From contig NZ_JRFE01000022.1 in the NCBI RefSeq assembly GCF_000756305.1, forward strand, positions 1 to 64,000: 64,000 nt of DNA, given 5' to 3'. A program made the translations under genes and the position numbers. The DNA comes from Myxosarcina sp. GI1 (GTDB lineage: Bacteria > Cyanobacteriota > Cyanobacteriia > Cyanobacteriales > Xenococcaceae). This document shows, in pieces, positions 44,733-57,139 of this stretch. The notes beneath the pieces are model-generated. The model was not told the origin of the DNA. It saw only the letters and a program-made list of their open reading frames with translations, and made no database searches. Numbering within the stretch: position 1 is the first letter of the stretch; each line of letters opens with the position of its first letter.

Positions 44733-47543
44733 TTACAAAAAAGAAGAGCGACGACGGGACAAGAACCAGCGTTGAAACAGTTTCTCTAATTCTATCCAAA
44801 CAAACATCAGCATACTAAAACCGAAGCATATAGCTAATTCTGTAGAACTAAGCAAGTGAGTATCAAAGAAGTTACGCAGAGGTTCGACATAAATAAGCAG
44901 TAGTTGTAAAACAGTAGTAAGTATTACCGCACCCAATACATAGAGGTTAGAAAAAGGATTCATTTCGATAGTAAGTCTAGTATCAGAACGAACTGCTATA
45001 GCGTGTCCCATTTGAGCCAGACATAGGGTAGTAAACACCATTGTTTTCCAACGATCTGGGTCGCCATCGAGACTATCGTATCTATAAGACCAAACCATTA
45101 GCGAAATCGATAATAAGGCAAAAATAATTCCAATTCTCAGCATATATAAACCCAAGCCGCGAGCGAAAATACTTTCTCTAGGACTGTAGGGAGGACGGCG
45201 CATCACGTTGGGTTCGGCTGGTTCCATTGCCAAAGCTAAAGCGGGTAAACCATCTGTTACCAAGTTCATCCACAAAATTTGCAATGGAGACAGAGGCACT
45301 CCACCCAAACCGAGTAATGGTGCTGCGGCGATAGTTAACACCTCACCGATGTTGCTACCGAGGATATATTTAATAAACCGACGAATATTATCGTAAACTA
45401 CTCTGCCTTCTTCGGTAGCAGCCACGATGGTAGCAAAATTATCATCCAGTAAAATCATATCGCTGGCTTCTTTACTGACATCGGTTCCCGTAATTCCCAT
45501 AGCCACTCCAATATCGGCTTGTTTGAGAGCGGGAGCATCATTAACGCCATCTCCTGTCATGGCTACAAACTCACCACGCTTTTGTAAGGCTTTAACGATG
45601 CGTAGCTTGTGTTCTGGTGCCACGCGGGCATAGATATTTACTTCTTCAACTACTCGTTCTAGTTCTTCCGTAGACATTGCTTCTAGTTTCCGTCCCGTAA
45701 GAGAGCTTTCGTTATTGTTGGCAATCTCTAAGCGAGCGGCGATCGCTATAGCGGTAAGGGGATGATCGCCAGTAATCATTACGGTACGAATTCCTGCCTG
45801 TTTGCAGCGTCTAACGGCTTCTTTGACTTCGGTACGGGGTGCATCGAGCATTCCCACCAAGCCCAACCAAATTAAATTGTTTTCGGCTTCAGCTTCTGTA
45901 CCTGCGGGGGGAACTTCGGCAAGGGGCTTATAAGCAAAACCCAATACTCTCAAGCCATTACTTGCCAATTTGTTATTAATTTCAAGAATTTGCTGTCTTT
46001 GAGGTTCGGCGATCGCTTCTGGAGTATCTTTGTTTTCCCAGCGATTGCATCTTGCCAAAATTATTTCAGGAGAGCCTTTGGCAAACATCAGGTAGGGCAG
46101 TTCATTTTCGTTAGGATTAGCCACAATTACCGACATTCGTTTGCGTTCGGAGGAAAAGGGAAACTCTCCCAAACGGGGCATTTTGGAATCTAAATTTTCT
46201 TTGAAAATATCTGCCTTACCAGCAAGTGCGAGTAAGGCTCCTTCTGTCGGATCGCCCAAAATCGAATACTCAATATTATTTTTGGTACGATCTTTGGTTT
46301 GCTTTAGTAGAGCATCGTTACAGCAGACACAAGCCTGAAACAATTTGTTGACTTCTGGCTTTCTTTTAATGCTGTTGCTTTCTCGACAGTCAAATGTTCC
46401 TGATGGTTCGTAACCTTCACCCGTAACGCTAAAGTTATAAGAACCCGTATATACTTGCTGCACTACCATTTTGTTTTGGGTTAAAGTTCCTGTTTTATCA
46501 GAACAGATAGTAGTTACCGAACCGAGGGTTTCTACTGCAGGGAGTTTGCGTATTAGTGCCTGACGGCGGATCATCTTTTGAGTGCCAATTGCCAAAGTAA
46601 CGGTAACTACAGCAGGCAGTCCTTCGGGCACGACTGCTACAGCCATACTCAAAGATATTTCTAACAGTTCGTCAAAAAACTGCCATCCCGCTCGCAACAC
46701 CCCACCAATAACTACTAGAGCTACTAAAGCCATCGAACCACTAACTAAGACATTGCCTAGTTGAGTCATTCTTTGCTGCAAGGGTGTCGGTTCGCTTTCT
46801 ACGCTTTGAATCATGGCAGCGATACGACCGATTTCGGTTTCCATACCCGTGCGCGTAACGATTGCTGTGGCTCTCCCCCGAATCACTTCCGTTCCCTGAA
46901 ACACTAAGTTGATGCGATCGCCTAGAGCAATATCTTCGGCTAAAATAGCACTAGCATCTTTATCAACCGCAGTAGCTTCACCCGTGAGGGTAGATTCGGC
47001 AATTTGTAAATTTCGCGCTTCTAATAAGCGTCCATCGGCAGCAATTTGTACTCCTGCTTCTAACAACATGATGTCTCCTGGTACTAGTTCTCTAGCATCG
47101 ACTTCCTGAGTGTTGCCGTTGCGAATTACTCGTACTTGGGGAGAAGAAAGACGCTTGAGTGCGGCTAAAGCTTGTTCTGCCCGACTTTCCTGGAGATAGC
47201 CCAAAATTCCGTTTAAAATAACGATGGCAGAGATCGCCACGGCATCTTTAGGAAAGTTGCCCTGACGTAGATCTAAAATTGCCGATACTATCGCTACCGC
47301 AATTAGCATCAGCAACATGATGTTGGTAAACTGATCCCACAAAATGCTTAAGGCACTGCGTCCGCCAGTTTCTTTTAGTTCATTTACGCCAAAGTAGTGC
47401 TGTCTGCTTTTTACTTCATCGCTATTCAAACCTCTCTTGCGATCGCTTTGTAGTAATTCGATAGCTCGTTCGCTATCGGTTGCTTGCCAAGGTTCGCTAG
47501 TTTGAAGTATTGTTTTTGACTTAGAAGTAGTAGGAAAATTCAT
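44733..47543 (-). CDS. P2A-type Ca2+-transporting ATPase (second paralogue)
   Basis: The 936-residue pump carries Asp349 in [26 protein letters not shown] and [23 protein letters not shown] and NLVTDGLPA supply Ca2+-binding positions as in the paralogue at 6785-9598. The two are close in sequence along the whole length. The gene sits between ExoD and DUF362. It acts in the plasma membrane. Why the chromosome keeps two is unclear; different regulation is the obvious guess. Confidence 0.92.
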
Positions 47544-47593: not shown

Positions 47594-48199
47594 TCATCTA
47601 AAAAAGTTGGGTAATAAATTAGGTGCTTGCCAAAAGGCATAGCCGATAAAGAAAAAAAATACAGTGTTGACTATAGTAAAAAAATAACCGATACACATTA
47701 CTAAGCCATCGGCTTCCAAAGTAGCTATTGCCAACAGCAAAATTGTCGAGGCTGGCAAAGGATTGGTAAAAGGAATTGGCAACATTAGTAAGATTGATAG
47801 CCAAGCGATACAAAAGCCGTTGCTTTTCCAGACATAAATATTAGTGGCTACTCGTTTCCAACGCGGACATAAAATTATCTCTAATCTAAGAGTAAGGCGA
47901 CGAACATTTTGTAATAATTTCTGGCAAAGGCTACGAGGGAATTTAAATTTAGCTACTCGTTGCGGCAGCCAAGGCGATTTGCTACCTAGCGCCATTTGTC
48001 CTCCCAACACCAAGCATCCAGTACCCATTACGCTAGACAAACCAGGAGGCATCGGAAATAAAAAGGGTAATGCTAATAAACTAATAATCAAACTAAATCC
48101 TCGTTCGGCAGTTTCTTCGAGCATCTCGCCGAGAGTTATTGGTTTAGCAGCTAATTTTATAAGTAATAGTTCAATTTCTCGTGAAAATTTAAGAGACAT
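47594..48199 (-). CDS. ExoD family membrane protein
   Basis: The 201-residue protein has several hydrophobic helices and the typical ExoD pieces LAAKPITLGEMLEETAERG, LPFLFPMPPGLSSVMG and LPIPFTNPLPASTILLLAIA. ExoD proteins are membrane proteins linked to exopolysaccharide synthesis and alkaline tolerance. It begins 48 bases before a HIP1-centred palindrome and ends 50 bases from the ATPase gene start. Confidence 0.85.
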   Translation of the reverse strand: MSLKFSREIELLLIKLAAKPITLGEMLEETAERGFSLIISLLALPFLFPMPPGLSSVMGTGCLVLGGQMALGSKSPWLPQRVAKFKFPRSLCQKLLQNVRRLTLRLEIILCPRWKRVATNIYVWKSNGFCIAWLSILLMLPIPFTNPLPASTILLLAIATLEADGLVMCIGYFFTIVNTVFFFFIGYAFWQAPNLLPNFFR

Positions 48200-48322: not shown

Positions 48323-49147
48323 TTATTGGTATTGTTCCAAAAAATCTAAGGCGCGATCGCGCAATTTATGATATTCTTCTGATTCATAAATTGCGTGGCG
48401 ATCGCGTGGATGAGGAAAAGGCACGTTTAAAATTTCCCCAATTTTGGCTTCTGGTCCATTAGTCATTAAAATGATGCGATCGGACATATAAATCGCCTCG
48501 TCAACATCGTGAGTAATCATCATTGCCGCTTGTCGATGTCCTTCCCAAATTTCTAGTACCTGCTTCTGTAGCTTTCTTTTAGTAAGAGCGTCTAAAGCAC
48601 CAAAAGGTTCGTCCATAAGCAGCATTTTCGGACGAGTAATTAAAGCGCGAGCAATTCCCACTCGTTGTTTCATTCCTCCCGATATTTCATCGGGATAGCG
48701 ATCGGCAGCCTGGGTTAAATTAACCATTGCTAGATGCTCGTCAATCAGACCAGCTTTTTCAGCGCGAGATGCCCCATCGAGAACTTCATCTACTGCTAAG
48801 CGAATATTTTCTCTAACCGTCAGCCAGGGTAACAGTGCATAGTTCTGAAAGACCATCATGCGATCGGCACCAGGCTTACGAATTTCTTTACCTTCTAAAG
48901 TTACTAATCCCGAAGTTGCTTTGTCTAAACCAGCAACAATTCGCAATAAAGTCGATTTACCGCAACCAGAGTGACCGATAACTGAAATATACTCCTCCGC
49001 ACCAATAGTTAGGTTGATGCCATCGAGAATTACTACCCGTCCGCCATCGGGAGTAGGAAAAGCTTTGACTAAATTTTCAATTACTAAAAATTCTTCTCGA
49101 TCGCGCTCTCTCGTATAATGTGTTGTCGCAGTATTATAATCGTACAT
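48323..49147 (-). CDS. CmpD/NrtD-type ABC transporter ATP-binding protein
   Basis: The 274-residue ATPase has Walker A GHSGCGKST, signature ISGGMKQRVG, Walker [15 protein letters not shown] and the switch His in ITHDVDEA. The MVFQNYALLPWLTVREN and EIWEGHRQAAMM blocks are those of nitrate/sulfonate/bicarbonate (NitT) family ATPases. It is the last gene of a three-gene operon under a c-di-AMP riboswitch. No second ATPase with a fused binding domain (NrtC/CmpC) is present. Confidence 0.88.
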   Translation of the reverse strand: MYDYNTATTHYTRERDREEFLVIENLVKAFPTPDGGRVVILDGINLTIGAEEYISVIGHSGCGKSTLLRIVAGLDKATSGLVTLEGKEIRKPGADRMMVFQNYALLPWLTVRENIRLAVDEVLDGASRAEKAGLIDEHLAMVNLTQAADRYPDEISGGMKQRVGIARALITRPKMLLMDEPFGALDALTKRKLQKQVLEIWEGHRQAAMMITHDVDEAIYMSDRIILMTNGPEAKIGEILNVPFPHPRDRHAIYESEEYHKLRDRALDFLEQYQ

Positions 49148-49249: not shown

Positions 49250-50644
49250 TCAAGACATAAAAAATGAGCGCGGTGCATTAGCGCGAATCTTAAAGCTGTT
49301 GAGATAGCCAACGGGATCGCTAGGATTGAAGGCTTTATTATCAATAAATGCCTCTGCTGATTCGACTTTATGATTTTCTGTCGGGCATTCGATGCCCATT
49401 TCGGCAGCAATTTCTCGATACAGATCGGTACGCCAAGCTTTACGGGCAATTTCGTCGGCATTTTTGGGAAATCTTTCTACCTGTTGCCAGCGTACTGCTT
49501 GGGTAAGTAGCCATAAGTTTTGCGACTGCCATAAAAAAGTCGAATGATCGTTGGGAATAGTGGAAACATCGCTAGGAAGATCGAAAAACAGGGTAGTTTC
49601 CAGGCTCTTTACAATTCGCTGCTTGTCGTCAAAACCGCCATAGTTGTAATTGCCCACAATACCAGCACTAGTTATTTTAGGTTCGGCACCTGTAAAAGAA
49701 CGTCCAGAAATAATTTCGGCTACTTCTGGGCGATTTTCTGGTTTGCTGCAATATTGACAGGCTTCAATTAATGCTTTGACTAAAGAACGATAGGTTTTGG
49801 GATTTTCGTCAATAAACGATTCCATTACTGCCAAAACGCGATCGGGATGTCCTTTCCAGATTTCACGACCCTGAGCGAAAGTAAACCCAATGCCTTCATT
49901 ACCAGAAATTGCCCGTGTATTCCATGGTTCTGCCACCATATAGCCCTGCATCGCACCGATACGCATATTGCTAACCATTTGGGGTGGCGGCGTGATTAAA
50001 ATGCGAAACTCCTCGACGGGATCTAAACCTGTAGCAGCAATTAAATAGCGCGTAAAATATTCATAAATTGCCGAACTTAGCACTACTGCCCAAGCTCTTT
50101 TTTCTGGAGGAGCCTTGCCAAAGTAACCGTCTAGATCGCGTCCGAACTGTTCTAAATCTCCTCGATAATCTTGCCAGGGTCGAACACCAGCATCCCAAAG
50201 TTCTTTACTCAGTGTCATAGCGTTACCGTGACGGTGAATCGTCATAGCCGCACATAAGGGTGCTTTACGCGCTCCTTCGGCTCCTGCTCTAGCGTTCATC
50301 ACCGCCCCAGAAACTACAGGTGAAGCATCGAGGCGACCAAAAATTACCCCATCGCGAGAGTTAGCCCAACTAGCCTCGCGGCTGAGAGTGACATTTAAAC
50401 CATACTTGTGAAATAAACCTTTTTCCCAGGCAACGGCAAAGGGCGCACAGTCATTAACGGGAACATAGCCAATAGTTAGATTGGGTTTTTCTAAACTTTT
50501 GGGATTTACAACTGGTTCGACTGCTAGGGCAGGTTTGGTTAACTTTGAGGTAGTGCGACTGCTATTAGTACAAGAAGCAAAGGCGATCGCTGACGCACTC
50601 GCCCCCAAGCCTTGTAGTAAGGCTCTTCGAGTTAGCTTATTCAT
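49250..50644 (-). CDS. CmpA/NrtA family ABC transporter substrate-binding lipoprotein
   Basis: The 464-residue protein has a twin-arginine-like start (MNKLTRRALLQGLGASASAI) ending in a lipobox FASC, so it is anchored outside the plasma membrane. The family pattern is clear: IGYVPVNDCAPFAVAWEKGLF, ASWANSRDG, MAAPL-like CAAMTIHRHGN, and QYCSKPENRPEVAEIISG. The Trp of ASW and downstream DPW-type PW pair match NrtA/CmpA. Where NrtA has Lys and CmpA has Glu (before IGY), this reads GNEGIGF, so nitrate versus bicarbonate cannot be decided. Other oxyanions or organic solutes are possible. Confidence 0.82.
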   Translation of the reverse strand: MNKLTRRALLQGLGASASAIAFASCTNSSRTTSKLTKPALAVEPVVNPKSLEKPNLTIGYVPVNDCAPFAVAWEKGLFHKYGLNVTLSREASWANSRDGVIFGRLDASPVVSGAVMNARAGAEGARKAPLCAAMTIHRHGNAMTLSKELWDAGVRPWQDYRGDLEQFGRDLDGYFGKAPPEKRAWAVVLSSAIYEYFTRYLIAATGLDPVEEFRILITPPPQMVSNMRIGAMQGYMVAEPWNTRAISGNEGIGFTFAQGREIWKGHPDRVLAVMESFIDENPKTYRSLVKALIEACQYCSKPENRPEVAEIISGRSFTGAEPKITSAGIVGNYNYGGFDDKQRIVKSLETTLFFDLPSDVSTIPNDHSTFLWQSQNLWLLTQAVRWQQVERFPKNADEIARKAWRTDLYREIAAEMGIECPTENHKVESAEAFIDNKAFNPSDPVGYLNSFKIRANAPRSFFMS

Positions 50645-50683: not shown

Positions 50684-51517
50684 CTAAGAACGAGCGGGAC
50701 GATGGGTTATCCATGTTTCCAACAAACTCAAGAGGTAGTCGAGGATCAAACCCGTCAAACCGATAACAAATACAGCCAAAAATACCGAACTGAGATTGAG
50801 GCGACTCCATTCATCCCAGACAAAAAAGCCAATACCGATACCGCCAGTCAACATCTCTACTGCTACGATGACTAACCAGGCAACCCCCAAACTAATTCGC
50901 AAGCCAGTAAAAATATAGGGCAAGCTGGCAGGTAAAATAATTTTCACGATCTTTTTCCAAGTGGGCATTTCCAGCATTCGCGCCACATCTTGATAGTCTT
51001 TTGGTACGCTGGCTACGCCCATCGCAGTATTAATAATCGTAGACCACAGAGAAGTTATAAAAATTACAAAAATTGCCGAAGGATTGGCAAGATTGAAAAT
51101 AGCCAGAGCGATTGGCAACCACGCTAGAGGGGATACGGGCTTGAGAACTTGAATCAAGGGGTTAATTGCCAGCATCGCCGATCGCGACATTCCAATTAAA
51201 AATCCTACGGGAATGGCTACTGCCGCCCCGATTAAAAAGCCAATAGTAACCCTTCTCAAACTTGCTAGCAATAGCCAACCCAATCCTAAATCTCCAGGTC
51301 CCCGACGATAAAAGGGATGAAAAATATAGTCTAAATTTTCGATTAGAGCTTCTGGGGGTGTGGGCATTAGTTCGTGGCGTACTAGCGCGATCGCCCACCA
51401 AACAAGTATCAAACCTAAAAAACCCGCCGCAGGTAATAAAACAGTGTCACGAATGACTACGGGCTTAATTCGCTTCCAGGCTATCTGCCCAGCAACGGCA
51501 AGAATAGACAAATTCAT
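50684..51517 (-). CDS. CmpB/NrtB-type ABC transporter permease
   Basis: The 277-residue protein has six helices and the BPD_transp_1 signature. LLLASLRRVTIGFLIGAAVA, LIQVLKPVSPLAWLPIALA and WKKIVKIILPASLPYIFTGL are typical of NrtB/CmpB/SsuC. It is the first gene of the operon, starting about 95 bases past the riboswitch. With the binding protein and ATPase it forms a complete importer. Confidence 0.88.
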   Translation of the reverse strand: MNLSILAVAGQIAWKRIKPVVIRDTVLLPAAGFLGLILVWWAIALVRHELMPTPPEALIENLDYIFHPFYRRGPGDLGLGWLLLASLRRVTIGFLIGAAVAIPVGFLIGMSRSAMLAINPLIQVLKPVSPLAWLPIALAIFNLANPSAIFVIFITSLWSTIINTAMGVASVPKDYQDVARMLEMPTWKKIVKIILPASLPYIFTGLRISLGVAWLVIVAVEMLTGGIGIGFFVWDEWSRLNLSSVFLAVFVIGLTGLILDYLLSLLETWITHRPARS

Positions 51518-51611
51518 GATAAATAACCCCCATGTTTCAGGAATTCACACGAATGAACAGTATGATTCGGGAAGACTGATGAGGATAAATTAAAAAATTC
51601 CTTCAGTTTCC

Positions 51612-51720
51612 TCTCAACGCCGACGAGGTTAGCTGACGGGCTAGGACTGAGAGTTGTCCTTCTCTGCTTTTTCCTTAGAGATACGCCCCAGATTTGGTTC
51701 CCCCGCTCTCTAGTCGCTAA
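51612..51720 (-). promoter_or_regulatory. ydaO-yuaA cyclic-di-AMP riboswitch
   Basis: On the minus strand the leader contains the conserved segments of the ydaO-yuaA class in order. They are GAGAGCGGGGGAACCA, GGGGCGTATC, a GGAC/GTCC hairpin, then TAGCCCGTCAGCTAACCTCG and GGCGTT closing the P1 stem against GCGAC near 51715. The loop of the GGAC hairpin (CTCTCA) is complementary to TGAGAG just past the aptamer, which may be part of the switch. A T6 tract follows at 51592-51597. It precedes the CmpB/NrtB-type permease gene by about 95 bases. In known cases the class is an OFF switch that lowers expression when c-di-AMP is high. Confidence 0.9.
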
Positions 51721-51844
51721 ATTGAGTTAGCTAGTAGAGACTAGGCTTAATAGAAAAATATAAGTTCTTTTTTTAATTTGCATATATATAATTAGATAGA
51801 TATTAGATACTGACTTTACGCAGTACGTACCGAAAATTGGTGTT

Positions 51845-52151: not shown

Positions 52152-52616
52152 ATGGCTTTAACAAGATACAATCCCTGGCAAGAAATGAACTCTTTACAAC
52201 GTCAACTAAATCGTTTATTCGACGATGCTTTAACTCCCGAATCTTGGAGTGACTTTAATAATTTGTCTAGAGTTCCTGCTGCCGAAATTACCGAAAAAAA
52301 TGATGCTTTGCATCTCAAACTCGAAGTTCCTGGCATGGAAGCTAAAGATCTAGATATTCAGGTTATGGCAGATCGCGTAGCGATTTCTGGCGAACGCAAA
52401 TCAGAAACTAAATCTGAAGACAGTGGTAAAACCAGAAGTGAATTTCGTTACGGCAAATTCTCTAGAGTAATTCCTCTACCCGTAAAAATTCAAAACACCA
52501 ATGTTACTGCCGAATACAAAGACGGTATTCTCAATCTGACTCTACCTAAATCGGAAGCAGAAAAAAATAAGGTAGTGAAAATTAATCTTGGTGAAGCTAA
52601 AAACCAAACTGCATAA
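52152..52616 (+). CDS. hspA: Hsp20/alpha-crystallin small heat-shock protein
   Basis: The 154-residue protein begins with the helical MALTRYNPWQEMNSLQRQLN and then the alpha-crystallin domain (about residues 45-140), containing FRYGKFSRVIPLP and GILNLTLPK, with a short tail. HspA of cyanobacteria is an ATP-independent chaperone that protects thylakoids and phycobilisomes. A hairpin terminator follows at 52672. Confidence 0.93.
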   Translation: MALTRYNPWQEMNSLQRQLNRLFDDALTPESWSDFNNLSRVPAAEITEKNDALHLKLEVPGMEAKDLDIQVMADRVAISGERKSETKSEDSGKTRSEFRYGKFSRVIPLPVKIQNTNVTAEYKDGILNLTLPKSEAEKNKVVKINLGEAKNQTA

Positions 52617-52671
52617 TTGGTGCTTCAAAGCTAAAGGTTCACACTTCTAGTCACATAGATTAATAATTAAG

Positions 52672-52702
52672 CCCAGTTACCAAAAGCGTGACTGGGTTTT
52701 TT
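52672..52702 (+). terminator. Rho-independent terminator of hsp20
   Basis: CCCAGTTAC (52672-52680) pairs with GTGACTGGG (52688-52696), one G-T pair in nine, across a seven-base loop, and TTTTTT follows at 52697-52702. Confidence 0.9.
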
Positions 52703-52827
52703 GCTGTCAAAAATTTACGCGCTATTTAATCTTGGCTCAATTAGCTTTCGCAATAATAACCAAACTAAAAGCAGAAAACCCTTGTATGGCAAGCATTATA
52801 TAAAAAAGATCCAATCTTGTTTGTATT

Positions 52828-52851
52828 AAAAATGTTTTTAAAAACATTTTT
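52828..52851. promoter_or_regulatory. Perfect 24-bp palindrome at the sulfate operon promoter
   Basis: AAAAATGTTTTT followed by AAAAACATTTTT is an exact palindrome with no spacer. It ends two bases before the predicted -35 box. The position suits an activator site, as sulfur-starvation genes need one. The sequence could also be a simple A/T-rich hairpin. Confidence 0.6.
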
Positions 52852-52852
52852 G

Positions 52853-52881
52853 TTTGCATTTTAGAATTTATGCGGTACAAT
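52853..52881 (+). promoter_or_regulatory. Predicted sigma-70-type promoter of the sulfate operon
   Basis: TTTGCA at 52853-52858 and TACAAT at 52876-52881 are separated by 17 bases. The start codon of sbpA is at 52912 with GAGGAA just upstream as ribosome-binding site. Confidence 0.55.
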
Positions 52882-52911
52882 TCGATTTAACTAAAGGTTG
52901 AGGAACTTGTC

Positions 52912-54039
52912 ATGATTTGGAGCCGATATATCAAACACCACCTGCGATCGCGAAGCGGATGCCCTTCGGACTTATCGCGCTCTGCGCACTGGCATCGCCA
53001 ATCGCCACAAAGATTTATAGGTTTGTCGCTGACAGGAGTGTTAATTGGTTTCACCAGTACCGCTTGTTCGCCAGCAGATAGCAATGATGCTGAGGCTAGC
53101 GAGTCGGTAAATTTAACTTTGGTATCTTATGCAGTTACTCAAAGTGCCTACGAAAAAATCATTCCCGAATTTGCCGAACAGTGGAAAGAAAAAACTGGAC
53201 AAACCGTCACTTTCGACCAAAGCTATGGCGGTTCTGGTTCGCAAACTCGCGCCGTAGTTGATGGACTAGAAGCCGATGTAGTTGCATTGGCACTGGCACT
53301 AGACACCAAAAAAATTGAGCAAGCGGGATTAATCAAACCAGGTTGGGAACAAGAGTTGCCCAATGACTCCATCGTTCACAAGTCGGTAGCGGCAGTTGTG
53401 ACTCGCGATGATAGCGTAAAAATAAGTAAATGGTCGGATTTGGCTAATAATAATATTCACGCCATTACTGCTAACCCTAAAACATCTGGAGGTGCGCGGT
53501 GGAACTTTTTAGCTTTATGGGGTTCTGTCACTGAAGCTGGTGGCACCGAGCAACAGGCGGAAGATTTTGTTGAAAAAGTTTATCTCAATGTACCCGTACT
53601 GCCTAAAGATGCTCGCGAGGCAACAGAGGTATTTTACAAACAGGGACAGGGAAATGCCTTAATCAACTATGAAAACGAGGTACTGTTGGCAAAACAGCAG
53701 GGAGATACACTACCCTACTTTATTCCCACCGACTACAACATTTCTATTGACAGTCCAGTTGCGGTAGTTGATGCCAATGTAGACAAACACAATACTCGTG
53801 AGGTAGCAGAAGCCTTTGTTAATTTCTTATACACACCCGAAGCACAGCGAGAATTTGCTCGTGTCGGTTTTCGTCCAGTAGACCAAAGTGTAGCAGCAGA
53901 GTTTGCCAGTCAATACCCTAAAATCGACAAGCTATTTACTATCGAAAGTATGGGCGGATGGGACAAAGTGCAAACTAAATTCTTTGCCGATAAAGCAATT
54001 TTCGACAAAATTCAGGAAAAAGCTCTCACAGCGAAATAA
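52912..54039 (+). CDS. sbpA: Sulfate ABC transporter substrate-binding protein
   Basis: The 375-residue periplasmic protein binds sulfate or thiosulfate. The family pattern is clear: VSYAVTQSAYEKIIPEF, FDQSYGGSGSQTRAV, LANNNIHAITANPKTSGGAR and INYENEVLLA. The N-terminus is odd. After MIWSRYIKHHL, residues about 12-30 (RSRSGCPSDLSRSAHW) are encoded by a GC-rich repeat containing GCGATCGC and GATGCCCTTCGG, and only then comes the hydrophobic signal helix ending in STAC. The lipobox suggests a lipoprotein. It is the first gene of the operon. Confidence 0.9.
   Translation: MIWSRYIKHHLRSRSGCPSDLSRSAHWHRQSPQRFIGLSLTGVLIGFTSTACSPADSNDAEASESVNLTLVSYAVTQSAYEKIIPEFAEQWKEKTGQTVTFDQSYGGSGSQTRAVVDGLEADVVALALALDTKKIEQAGLIKPGWEQELPNDSIVHKSVAAVVTRDDSVKISKWSDLANNNIHAITANPKTSGGARWNFLALWGSVTEAGGTEQQAEDFVEKVYLNVPVLPKDAREATEVFYKQGQGNALINYENEVLLAKQQGDTLPYFIPTDYNISIDSPVAVVDANVDKHNTREVAEAFVNFLYTPEAQREFARVGFRPVDQSVAAEFASQYPKIDKLFTIESMGGWDKVQTKFFADKAIFDKIQEKALTAK
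52944..53006. repeat. GC-rich dispersed repeat inside the sbpA signal region
   Basis: The segment from GCGATCGCGAAGCGG to GGCATCGCCAATCGCC, with GATGCCCTTCGG inside, is far more GC-rich than its surroundings and looks like a cyanobacterial palindromic repeat that kept the reading frame. It adds about 20 residues before the signal helix. Confidence 0.6.
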
Positions 54040-54074
54040 GAACTACTAATTTACTTCTTAGGAGTCTTTTAACA

Positions 54075-54374
54075 ATGCAAAAACTTCTTACTCAAACCAA
54101 AAGCGAAATAGATAGCAATAGACTAACGCAAACTCGCATCAAGATCCAAGTTCCCGAACGATACCATCGAGAACCTGTAATTGCTAATCTCTTTTACCAA
54201 CATGGCTTAAAGGTTAATATTGCTGCGGCTTTGCTAGATGCTAATGCTAATGGAGACGGTTGGTTCGATCTCCAACTTTATGGGACTCAATCTCAAATCG
54301 ATAGTGGCTTAATTTACCTTTCAGAAATGAACGTGCGGTTTTGGAATGAAGCCTCGGAACTCGATGGCTGGTAG
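54075..54374 (+). CDS. NIL-domain protein in the sulfate operon
   Basis: This 99-residue protein matches the NIL/ACT-like domain seen at the end of MetN ATPases: RIKIQVPERYHREPVIANLF, GLKVNIAAALLDAN and DGWFDLQLYGT. Free-standing NIL proteins are expected to bind a small ligand such as an amino acid. Small ORFs at this place are found in other cyanobacterial sulfate operons. I infer a sensor that adjusts uptake to the level of cysteine or methionine. Confidence 0.82.
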   Translation: MQKLLTQTKSEIDSNRLTQTRIKIQVPERYHREPVIANLFYQHGLKVNIAAALLDANANGDGWFDLQLYGTQSQIDSGLIYLSEMNVRFWNEASELDGW

Positions 54375-54426
54375 TAAATAACGCAACTATTAATATCTCT
54401 TAACTTACGTATACGATCGCTAGGCC

Positions 54427-55266
54427 ATGACTAATTATCCACTACCAATTTTACGCTCGAAATTGACTTCAATTTCTTTACCCAAAACCATAACGGGATT
54501 TTATTTAATTCTGTTTTTAATCTTACCTATCGCGGCTTTATTCAGCAGTGCCTTAAGCGTTGGCGTAGGTGAATTTCGTCAAATTGCTACCAGTAAAATT
54601 GCTCTTTCCGCTTACAACGTTACCTTTATTACCGCCTTGCTTGCTGCTTTGGTTAACGGTTTGATGGGAACTTTGGTTGCCTGGGTATTAGTGCGTTACG
54701 AGTTTCCCTGTAAAAAATTGGTTGATGCGATTGTAGATTTACCCTTTGCCCTGCCAACTTCAGTCGCGGGGGTAGTGTTAGCAACTTTGTATAGCGAAAA
54801 GGGTTGGATCGGTGGAGTTTTTGCTCCTCTTGGCATCAAAATTGCCTTTACTCGCCTGGGCGTATTCGTAGCAATGATTTTTATTTCTCTACCCTTTGTC
54901 GTGCGAACCCTCCAGCCAGTAATGCAAGAAATGGAAAAAGAAGTAGAAGAAGCCTCGCGATCGCTTGGTGCCAACCAACTACAAACATTTTGGCGCGTGT
55001 TATTTCCCCCCTTAATACCGCCAATTTTAACGGGAATAGCATTAGGTTTTTCCAGAGCGGTTGGGGAATATGGTTCGGTAGTAATTATCTCCTCTAGCGT
55101 TCCGTTTAAAGATTTAATCGCTCCAGTTCTAATTTTCCAACAGCTAGAACAATATGACTATGCAGGTGCGACCGTAATTGGTACGGTGCTGTTACTGGTA
55201 TCCCTGGGAATATTGCTACTAATCAACGGTTTACAACAGTGGAGTCGTCGTTATGCCGTTGAGTAA
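54427..55266 (+). CDS. cysT: Sulfate ABC transporter permease CysT
   Basis: The 279-residue protein has six helices and the CysT pattern: FALPTSVAGVVLATLYSEKG and EMEKEVEEASRSLGANQLQT (the EAA loop). It is the first of the two permease subunits. Its last 14 bases overlap the start of cysW, so the two are coupled in translation. Confidence 0.93.
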   Translation: MTNYPLPILRSKLTSISLPKTITGFYLILFLILPIAALFSSALSVGVGEFRQIATSKIALSAYNVTFITALLAALVNGLMGTLVAWVLVRYEFPCKKLVDAIVDLPFALPTSVAGVVLATLYSEKGWIGGVFAPLGIKIAFTRLGVFVAMIFISLPFVVRTLQPVMQEMEKEVEEASRSLGANQLQTFWRVLFPPLIPPILTGIALGFSRAVGEYGSVVIISSSVPFKDLIAPVLIFQQLEQYDYAGATVIGTVLLLVSLGILLLINGLQQWSRRYAVE

Positions 55267-56092
55267 AAACAGTTCTCAATCCCAACCCAAATTTGCCGTT
55301 CCTCTAGTACTAATCACCATTGTCCTAATTTACCTGTTGCTAGTGTTGTTTATTCCTGCGATCGCAGTATTTTACCAAGCTTTTCATTTAGGATTAGAAC
55401 CATTTTTTGACGCAATTAACAGTAGAGAATTTTGGCACGCAACCAGGCTAACCTTAATTATGGCAGCGATCGCCGTACCCCTAAATACGATTTTCGGACT
55501 GTGTGCGGCTTGGGTCATTGCTCGCGATCGCTTTCGGGGACGCACTTTACTTCTAAGCATTATCGACCTGCCTTTTTCAATCTCCCCTGTAGTCGCTGGT
55601 TTGATGCTAGTTCTGCTTTACGGACGCAATGGTTGGTTTGGTGGCTGGCTCGATAGCATAAATTTTAAAGTTATTTTTGCCTCGCCAGGAATGATTTTAG
55701 CAACCATGTTTGTCACCTTACCTTTTGTCGCCAGAGAAGTCATTCCAGTCTTGGAGGCAATTGGCTCGGAGGAAGAAGAAGCGGGAAGAACTTTAGGAGC
55801 GAATGACTGGCAGGTCTTTTGGCGAGTAACCCTACCTAACATTCGTTGGGGCTTACTCTACGGCATTTTGTTAACCAATGCCAGAGCAATGGGCGAATTT
55901 GGAGCGGTTTCGGTGGTTTCTGGCAGTATTGTCGGACGGACTCAAACCCTACCGATTTTTGTCGAGCAGGCATACAAAAACTATCAGGTTCAAGCTGCCT
56001 TCGGCGCGGCAGCGATTTTAGCTTTACTAGCGGTAATCACGCTGATTTTTAAAGAAATTTTAGAACGACGTACACACATAGGTAACAAATAA
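55253..56092 (+). CDS. cysW: Sulfate ABC transporter permease CysW
   Basis: The 279-residue permease has the EAA loop GSEEEEAGRTLGANDWQVFW and the family segments DLPFSISPVVAGLMLVLLYG and NARAMGEFGAVSVVSGSIVG. It pairs with CysT to form the membrane channel. The start overlaps the cysT stop by 14 bases and the cysA start follows 18 bases after its stop. Confidence 0.94.
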   Translation: MPLSKNSSQSQPKFAVPLVLITIVLIYLLLVLFIPAIAVFYQAFHLGLEPFFDAINSREFWHATRLTLIMAAIAVPLNTIFGLCAAWVIARDRFRGRTLLLSIIDLPFSISPVVAGLMLVLLYGRNGWFGGWLDSINFKVIFASPGMILATMFVTLPFVAREVIPVLEAIGSEEEEAGRTLGANDWQVFWRVTLPNIRWGLLYGILLTNARAMGEFGAVSVVSGSIVGRTQTLPIFVEQAYKNYQVQAAFGAAAILALLAVITLIFKEILERRTHIGNK

Positions 56093-56110
56093 ACAAGAGG
56101 TACAACACAG

Positions 56111-57139
56111 ATGAGTATTTTTGTAAAAGGCGTTTCCAAACAATTTGGTGACTTTCAAGCTCTAGAGCGAGTAACTTTAGAAGTAAAAGAGGATTCGATA
56201 GTGGCATTACTCGGACCTTCAGGATCTGGAAAATCGACGCTGTTGCGAGTTATCGCTGGTTTAGAGTTACCAGACAGGGGGCAAGTTGTAATTAATGGTC
56301 GAGATGCTACCAATCTTGACGTACAAAGACGCAACATCGGCTTTGTTTTTCAGCACTATGCTTTATTCAAACATCTGACAATTCGCCAAAATATTGCCTT
56401 TGGTCTGGCAATTCGCAAACATCCCCGACAGCGCATTAAACACAGAGTTGAAGAATTATTAGAATTGATTCAGCTACGGGGTTTGGGCGATCGCTATCCC
56501 GCTCAACTTTCTGGCGGTCAACGACAACGAGTGGCACTGGCTCGCGCTCTGGCTACACAACCCCAGGTTTTATTACTAGACGAACCTTTTGGGGCATTAG
56601 ATGCCAAAGTCCGCAAAGACCTCCGCGCCTGGCTGCGTAGACTACACGATGAAGTCCACGTTACCAGTATTTTTGTTACTCACGACCAAGAAGAGGCGAT
56701 GGAAGTAGCTGATGAAATCGTGGTAATGAACCAAGGCAAGATCGAACAGGTAGGCACTCCTGCGGAGATTTACGATCGCCCCGCTACGCCGTTTGTAATG
56801 AGTTTTGTTGGCGAAGTCAACGTTTTACCCAGTTCGGCAGATTTATTCCGTCATCACAGCCACAATCCCTTACAGTCTGATGTATTTATACGTCCTCATG
56901 AGGTTGAAATTTTAACAACAGCTAATAGCAATACTACACAAGCAATAGTCAAACGTATAGTCCGTTTAGGTTGGGAAGTTCAGGTAGAACTGATTTTGCC
57001 AGATAACCTAACAGTAGTCGCACATTTAAGCCGTGAAAAGTTTGCCCAATTGAATCTGCAACCGTCCCAACGAGTGTTTGTCAAACCTCAAAATGTCAGA
57101 TCTTTTGCTGATACTGCTCTATCTCCCATAGCCGCTTAA
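56111..57139 (+). CDS. cysA: Sulfate/thiosulfate ABC transporter ATP-binding protein
   Basis: The 342-residue ATPase has Walker [10 protein letters not shown], signature [16 protein letters not shown], Walker [18 protein letters not shown] and switch His in [12 protein letters not shown]-terminal TOBE-like domain (about 240-342) follows. The [20 protein letters not shown] start is typical for CysA. It powers the importer built by sbpA, cysT and cysW. Confidence 0.95.

Follow-up and report, generated by a model that had tools for sequence, protein, structure and literature searches.

A predicted c-di-AMP riboswitch with a Shine-Dalgarno-blocking leader precedes an NrtA/CmpA-like importer operon in Myxosarcina sp. 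GI1 and other cyanobacteria

The leader of an ABC importer operon on the minus strand of the 64,000-nt stretch of the Myxosarcina sp. GI1 genome analysed here (the window) probably belongs to the RF00379 class of c-di-AMP riboswitches and carries a four-segment V-X-Y-Z switch ahead of an importer that co-regulation ties to ion and osmotic homeostasis. More tentatively, the leading target of c-di-AMP riboswitches in cyanobacteria as a whole could be an uncharacterised third branch of NrtA/CmpA importers, governed by a strand-relay translational ON switch that would couple anion uptake to the osmotic or ionic state of the cell. The finding points to a c-di-AMP target that is widespread and conserved in cyanobacteria, apparently uncharacterised, and equipped with a defined leader. 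Few c-di-AMP RNA targets of photosynthetic bacteria are described in the literature searched, and the substrate of this importer, together with the direction of its switch, would tell what c-di-AMP controls in these organisms.

The only Rfam match found by cmscan within the whole window was to RF00379. It covers the full model (1-134/134) and scores 79.9 bits against a gathering threshold of 38, with an E-value of 5.9e-17, far above chance (Table 1). This score bears out the first-pass annotation, which had recognised four ydaO-yuaA blocks about 95 bases before the operon; on the minus strand they occupy 51706-51695, 51689-51680, 51639-51624 and 51621-51616, all within the RF00379 match, and the last of them ends 95 nt 5' of the ATG at 51517. 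The span proposed at that stage (51518-51720) located the aptamer correctly but missed its first 37 nt. The 3' end of the aptamer lies 85 nt from the permease start and the spacing is similar in relatives, as for an element of the 5' leader. In an alignment of 100 rows of relatives that had been fitted to the structure, the 26 pairs of the aptamer helices were 93.5% paired and covaried (0/500 shuffles). The pseudoknot was paired in 96.3% of cells across 59 leaders and is too invariant to covary. A DAC-domain (diadenylate cyclase) protein is encoded in the genome, and c-di-AMP should therefore be present. Control of the operon by the predicted c-di-AMP-class aptamer has good support from the covariance score, the phylum-wide co-occurrence of aptamer and operon, and the conserved Shine-Dalgarno-blocking platform, the latter two of which are described below.

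Table 1. Features of the riboswitch leader and the downstream operon (positions in the window).
Feature	Position	Strand	Basis
c-di-AMP (ydaO/yuaA, RF00379) riboswitch aptamer	51603..51757	-	cmscan, full-length
Aptamer loop CUCUCA, pseudoknot 5' side, part of segment V	51648..51653	-	pairs with UGAGAG 51616-51611
UGAGAG, pseudoknot 3' side of aptamer	51611..51616	-	pairing across leaders
Segment X (GGAAACUGAAGGA), H1 5' arm, directly 3' of pseudoknot	51599..51611	-	pairing, covariation, swap test
Segment Y (UCCUCAUCAGUCUUCC), H1 3' arm and anti-Shine-Dalgarno strand	51570..51585	-	covariation, swap test
Hairpin H2 (GAAUCAUAC...GUGUGAAUUC) between anti-Shine-Dalgarno and Shine-Dalgarno	51541..51568	-	ortholog covariation; window arms read from sequence
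GGGGG, candidate Shine-Dalgarno (segment Z), 9 nt before ATG	51527..51531	-	sequence; position of the Shine-Dalgarno in orthologs
ABC transporter permease, NrtB/CmpB family	50684..51517	-	TIGR01183 241 bits, cut-off 209
Lipoprotein-type substrate-binding protein, NMT1_2 family, clade apart from CmpA/NrtA	49250..50644	-	PF13379 235 bits
ABC transporter ATPase, NrtD/CmpD-like, without fused regulatory domain	48323..49147	-	TIGR01184 352 bits, cut-off 292
ExoD-family membrane protein, probably a distal gene of the operon	47594..48199	-	PF06055; relatives directly targeted by RF00379 at other loci
P-type cation ATPase, probable distal operon gene	44733..47543	-	similar ATPase after RF00379 aptamer in L154

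The operon reads permease, binding protein, ATPase on the minus strand, as previously annotated, with gaps of 39 nt and 102 nt. The gap from the ATPase to the ExoD-family gene is 123 nt, and that from the latter to the P-type cation ATPase is 50 nt. Divergently from the operon, positions 52152-57139 of the plus strand carry an HSP20 gene followed by a sulfate importer set, whose binding-protein and permease genes are separated by a gene for a small NIL-domain protein.

The same gene order recurs in all 80 named loci with the closest binding proteins. The aptamer precedes the permease in 77 of the 80, as detected with a covariance model that was built from 27 aptamers and to which some of these loci had contributed; no confident match before the permease was obtained with this model or with Rfam for L078, L096 and L102. 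Rfam's own RF00379 model, which is independent, was positive in 12 of the 13 loci tried. Among 149 genomes of the order Cyanobacteriales, 58 encode the binding protein at no less than 65% identity; RF00379 is present in every one of them (58/58) and lies just upstream of the permease in 54. The distance from aptamer to start codon in relatives is mostly 72-137 nt. Aptamer and operon, first linked from the window leader, thus co-occur in orthologous leaders as well, and judged from these comparisons the pairing is old and has been retained in much of the phylum. Two of the 77 aptamers (L034 and L043) have low scores and are probably decayed. Such cases raise the question whether the window RNA, too, has ceased to respond to c-di-AMP or has acquired another ligand, which is very improbable: its conserved cores are all intact, its score ranks high among the 150 matches listed for the order, and the helices covary strongly over the 100 relatives. 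Tandem RF00379 aptamers about 0.4 kb apart were observed before the importer permease in two genomes, G086 (G086:C1:2313200-2313346 and 2313753-2313887) and G103.

In most leaders the aptamer is followed by segment X (GAGACUGAAGAG), a short apical part, segment Y (CUCAUCAGUGUCC), hairpin H2 (GGUAC...GUACC) and a Shine-Dalgarno (SD) sequence, UUGAGGU, a few bases 5' of the start. The window leader has the same parts in different letters; at 51531-51515, GGGGG takes the place of the GAGG-type SD that relatives usually have, at the same position. The window GGGGG is still complementary to the altered anti-SD strand.

The leader sequences are related, and the following covariation and swap counts therefore overstate independence: H1 (X.Y) was paired in 88.4% of cells, far above slid controls, and its double-change cells numbered 60, compared with 21.6 for shuffles (0/500); H2 covaried across orthologous leaders (0/500 shuffles); the SD-blocking pairing Y.Z covaried weakly in a fixed alignment (78.9% paired vs 76.7% shuffled, 2/500 shuffles); and in a swap test the native X.Y and Y.Z duplexes exceeded swapped ones in strength (0/2000 permutations for either pairing). 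With the same reservation, the best SD-complementary 21-mer fell at Y in 38 of 51 leaders. The V.X alternative is energetically plausible, though no covariation of this pairing was detected across leaders, and minimum-energy folds of the leader were no better than those of shuffled sequences (z -0.04 and -0.56).

The computational results on the aptamer, on its conserved placement upstream of the operon and on the covariation of X.Y, Y.Z and H2 are consistent with the following relay. As in attenuators, the segment order V-X-Y-Z would provide an off state, V.X with Y.Z, in which pairing of Y with Z would block translation of the permease, and an on state, X.Y, which would leave Z, the ribosome-binding site, free. 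The conserved SD-blocking strand points to translation as the likely level of control. Binding of c-di-AMP to the aptamer would set the aptamer state, and this state would decide between X.Y and Y.Z. The ligand would favour X.Y, because the bound aptamer retains V, which then cannot capture X. H1 overlaps the pseudoknot by a single base, so that X.Y should be compatible with the bound aptamer, which leans to activation by the ligand. We slightly favour c-di-AMP turning the predicted switch ON.

The opposite sign, in which ligand binding would sequester X and leave Y to block the SD, or would terminate transcription, falls somewhat short of an even chance. Characterised c-di-AMP riboswitches are mostly OFF switches acting on transcription, and many leaders have a U-run in the H2 loop. 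Constrained folding of 50 leaders gave a mean SD openness of 0.22 with the aptamer enforced vs 0.26 without it, values that do not separate the states; with the aptamer enforced the SD was less open in 12 of the 50 leaders and more open in 4, a tendency in the direction of an OFF switch. However, the one-base overlap of H1 with the pseudoknot means that the bound aptamer need not prevent X.Y, and a search of the leader's minus strand revealed neither an intrinsic terminator nor a terminator-like site.

CmpABCD (the BCT1 bicarbonate system) and NrtABCD (nitrate/nitrite) share their ABC family and binding-protein fold with the window importer, whose permease and ATPase both score above the NCBI nitrate-transporter cut-offs. 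The nearest solved relatives of the binding protein by sequence (PDB) are the regulatory domains of CmpC and NrtC, followed by CmpA and NrtA; the best Foldseek matches of its predicted fold (model pLDDT 70) are NrtA and CmpA, with the CmpC/NrtC regulatory domains also recovered. The window importer differs from CmpABCD and NrtABCD in its gene order (permease, binding protein, ATPase vs A-B-C-D), its pocket residues, its c-di-AMP aptamer leader, and the lack of a fused regulatory ATPase, its ATPase being a single-domain protein of 274 aa devoid of the CmpC/NrtC-type fused domain.

The pocket was compared by aligning 81 members of the binding-protein clade with CmpA (2i48), NrtA (2g29) and two regulatory domains, in NrtA numbering. 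Trp102, His151, His153, Asn155, Tyr196 and Arg269 are invariant in 81/81 members, and Arg152 is present in 80/81. At the variable positions NrtA has Gln155, His196 and Lys269, of which we take Gln155 and Lys269 to be ligand residues; CmpA in this numbering has Asn155, Gln196 and Glu269. The ligand residues of CmpA are Glu271, Gln155 and Gln198 (PMC13249358), and NrtA His196, the counterpart of CmpA Gln198, is a putative ligand residue (PMC11349869). The clade therefore follows neither the CmpA nor the NrtA ligand pattern. Arg269, a basic residue at the place of NrtA Lys269, would fit an anionic substrate. A reading of the pocket from the AlphaFold model was discarded, with several pocket loops at pLDDT <50.

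Phylogenetic analysis separates the clade from CmpA, NrtA and the CmpC/NrtC regulatory domains with moderate support (93/68), on a tree that lacks a good root, the outgroups being too long. The earlier designation "CmpA/NrtA-type" thus holds at the family level (PF13379, TIGR cut-offs and fold) and does not extend to the ligand residues or the tree position of the binding protein. The same genome contains a true cmpABCD, whose CmpA matches 2i48 best (1.1e-234), and a cyanate operon with cyanase; no RF00379 match was found at either region.

It is unlikely that the operon encodes a second bicarbonate or nitrate importer (a BCT1 or NRT system) through which the riboswitch would tie c-di-AMP to carbon or nitrogen uptake. 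The cut-offs exceeded by the permease and ATPase, the NrtA/CmpA fold of the binding protein, and the retention of Trp102 and of a basic Arg at NrtA Lys269 would fit such a role, but the other clade residues are unlike those of NrtA and CmpA, the clade stands apart on the tree, no regulatory ATPase is fused, and the genome already has CmpABCD and the cyanate operon, both without RF00379. The distinct pocket, the separate clade and these resident systems mean that a carbon or nitrogen role is not readable from the family name, and such a role is somewhat disfavoured. The carbon/nitrogen link proposed in the first-pass annotation is not supported, given the absence of both the CmpA (Gln/Glu) and the NrtA (His/Lys, Gln155) residues, the placement of the protein outside both groups, the lack of an aptamer at the real cmpABCD, and co-regulated genes that look osmotic or ionic. 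The predicted importer would carry a small, probably anionic solute.

The importer operon was the commonest target found, with 56 of the 150 aptamers listed for the order standing at it. Of 72 sampled aptamers, 35 stand before the importer permease, 14 a CitMHS/ArsB-like permease, three ExoD, three cation/H+ antiporters, two Usp proteins, one a P-type ATPase and one a sucrose-phosphate-synthase-like (SPS-like) transferase. A small conserved protein is encoded about 0.5 kb downstream of each of four aptamers (L012, L013, L134 and L135).

The importer is named nowhere as a c-di-AMP target in the literature searched, whose scope excludes the primary lists in which Nelson 2013 and Block 2010 reportedly set out targets of the class; it is probably a major, under-noticed target of a known riboswitch class. 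The window RNA matches the covariance model of the ydaO/yuaA leader (RF00379) in full, down to every helix, the pseudoknot and the conserved cores. It departs from that leader in the SD-blocking platform after the aptamer and in standing before an NrtA-like ABC importer, not before a gene for K+, osmolytes or the cell wall. A verified cyanobacterial c-di-AMP riboswitch acts on slr0753, a putative chloride exporter (review PMC10117731; also PMC9896922). This Synechocystis riboswitch is of the same class and phylum as the window RNA, and its target gene differs. A passage of PMC5986932 cites Nelson 2013 for osmoprotectant targets in cyanobacteria, and sorbitol stress raises c-di-AMP in some species (PMC5986932).

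The genome contains a total of three RF00379 aptamers. One (G000:C24:434395-434524) precedes a CitMHS/ArsB-type permease resembling slr0753, and another (G000:C25:2339-2489) precedes a Na+/H+ exchanger (Na_H_Exchanger) fused to Usp domains. The first gene found after an RF00379 aptamer belongs to the ExoD family or encodes a P-type cation ATPase in L018, L149, L150 and L154. Both resemble the distal genes of the window operon and are thus targeted independently by riboswitches at other loci. Co-regulation of the importer with the CitMHS/ArsB permease, cation/H+ antiporter, P-type ATPase, ExoD and Usp proteins suggests a function in ion or osmotic homeostasis; ionic and osmotic genes are the usual theme of the RF00379 class. 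In about 20 named loci (e.g., L072:7560-7698, L044:7316-7477 and L101:8128-8314) a second aptamer follows the ATPase gene and precedes a Usp-like gene and/or a CitMHS/ArsB-like permease, forming a c-di-AMP gene cluster.
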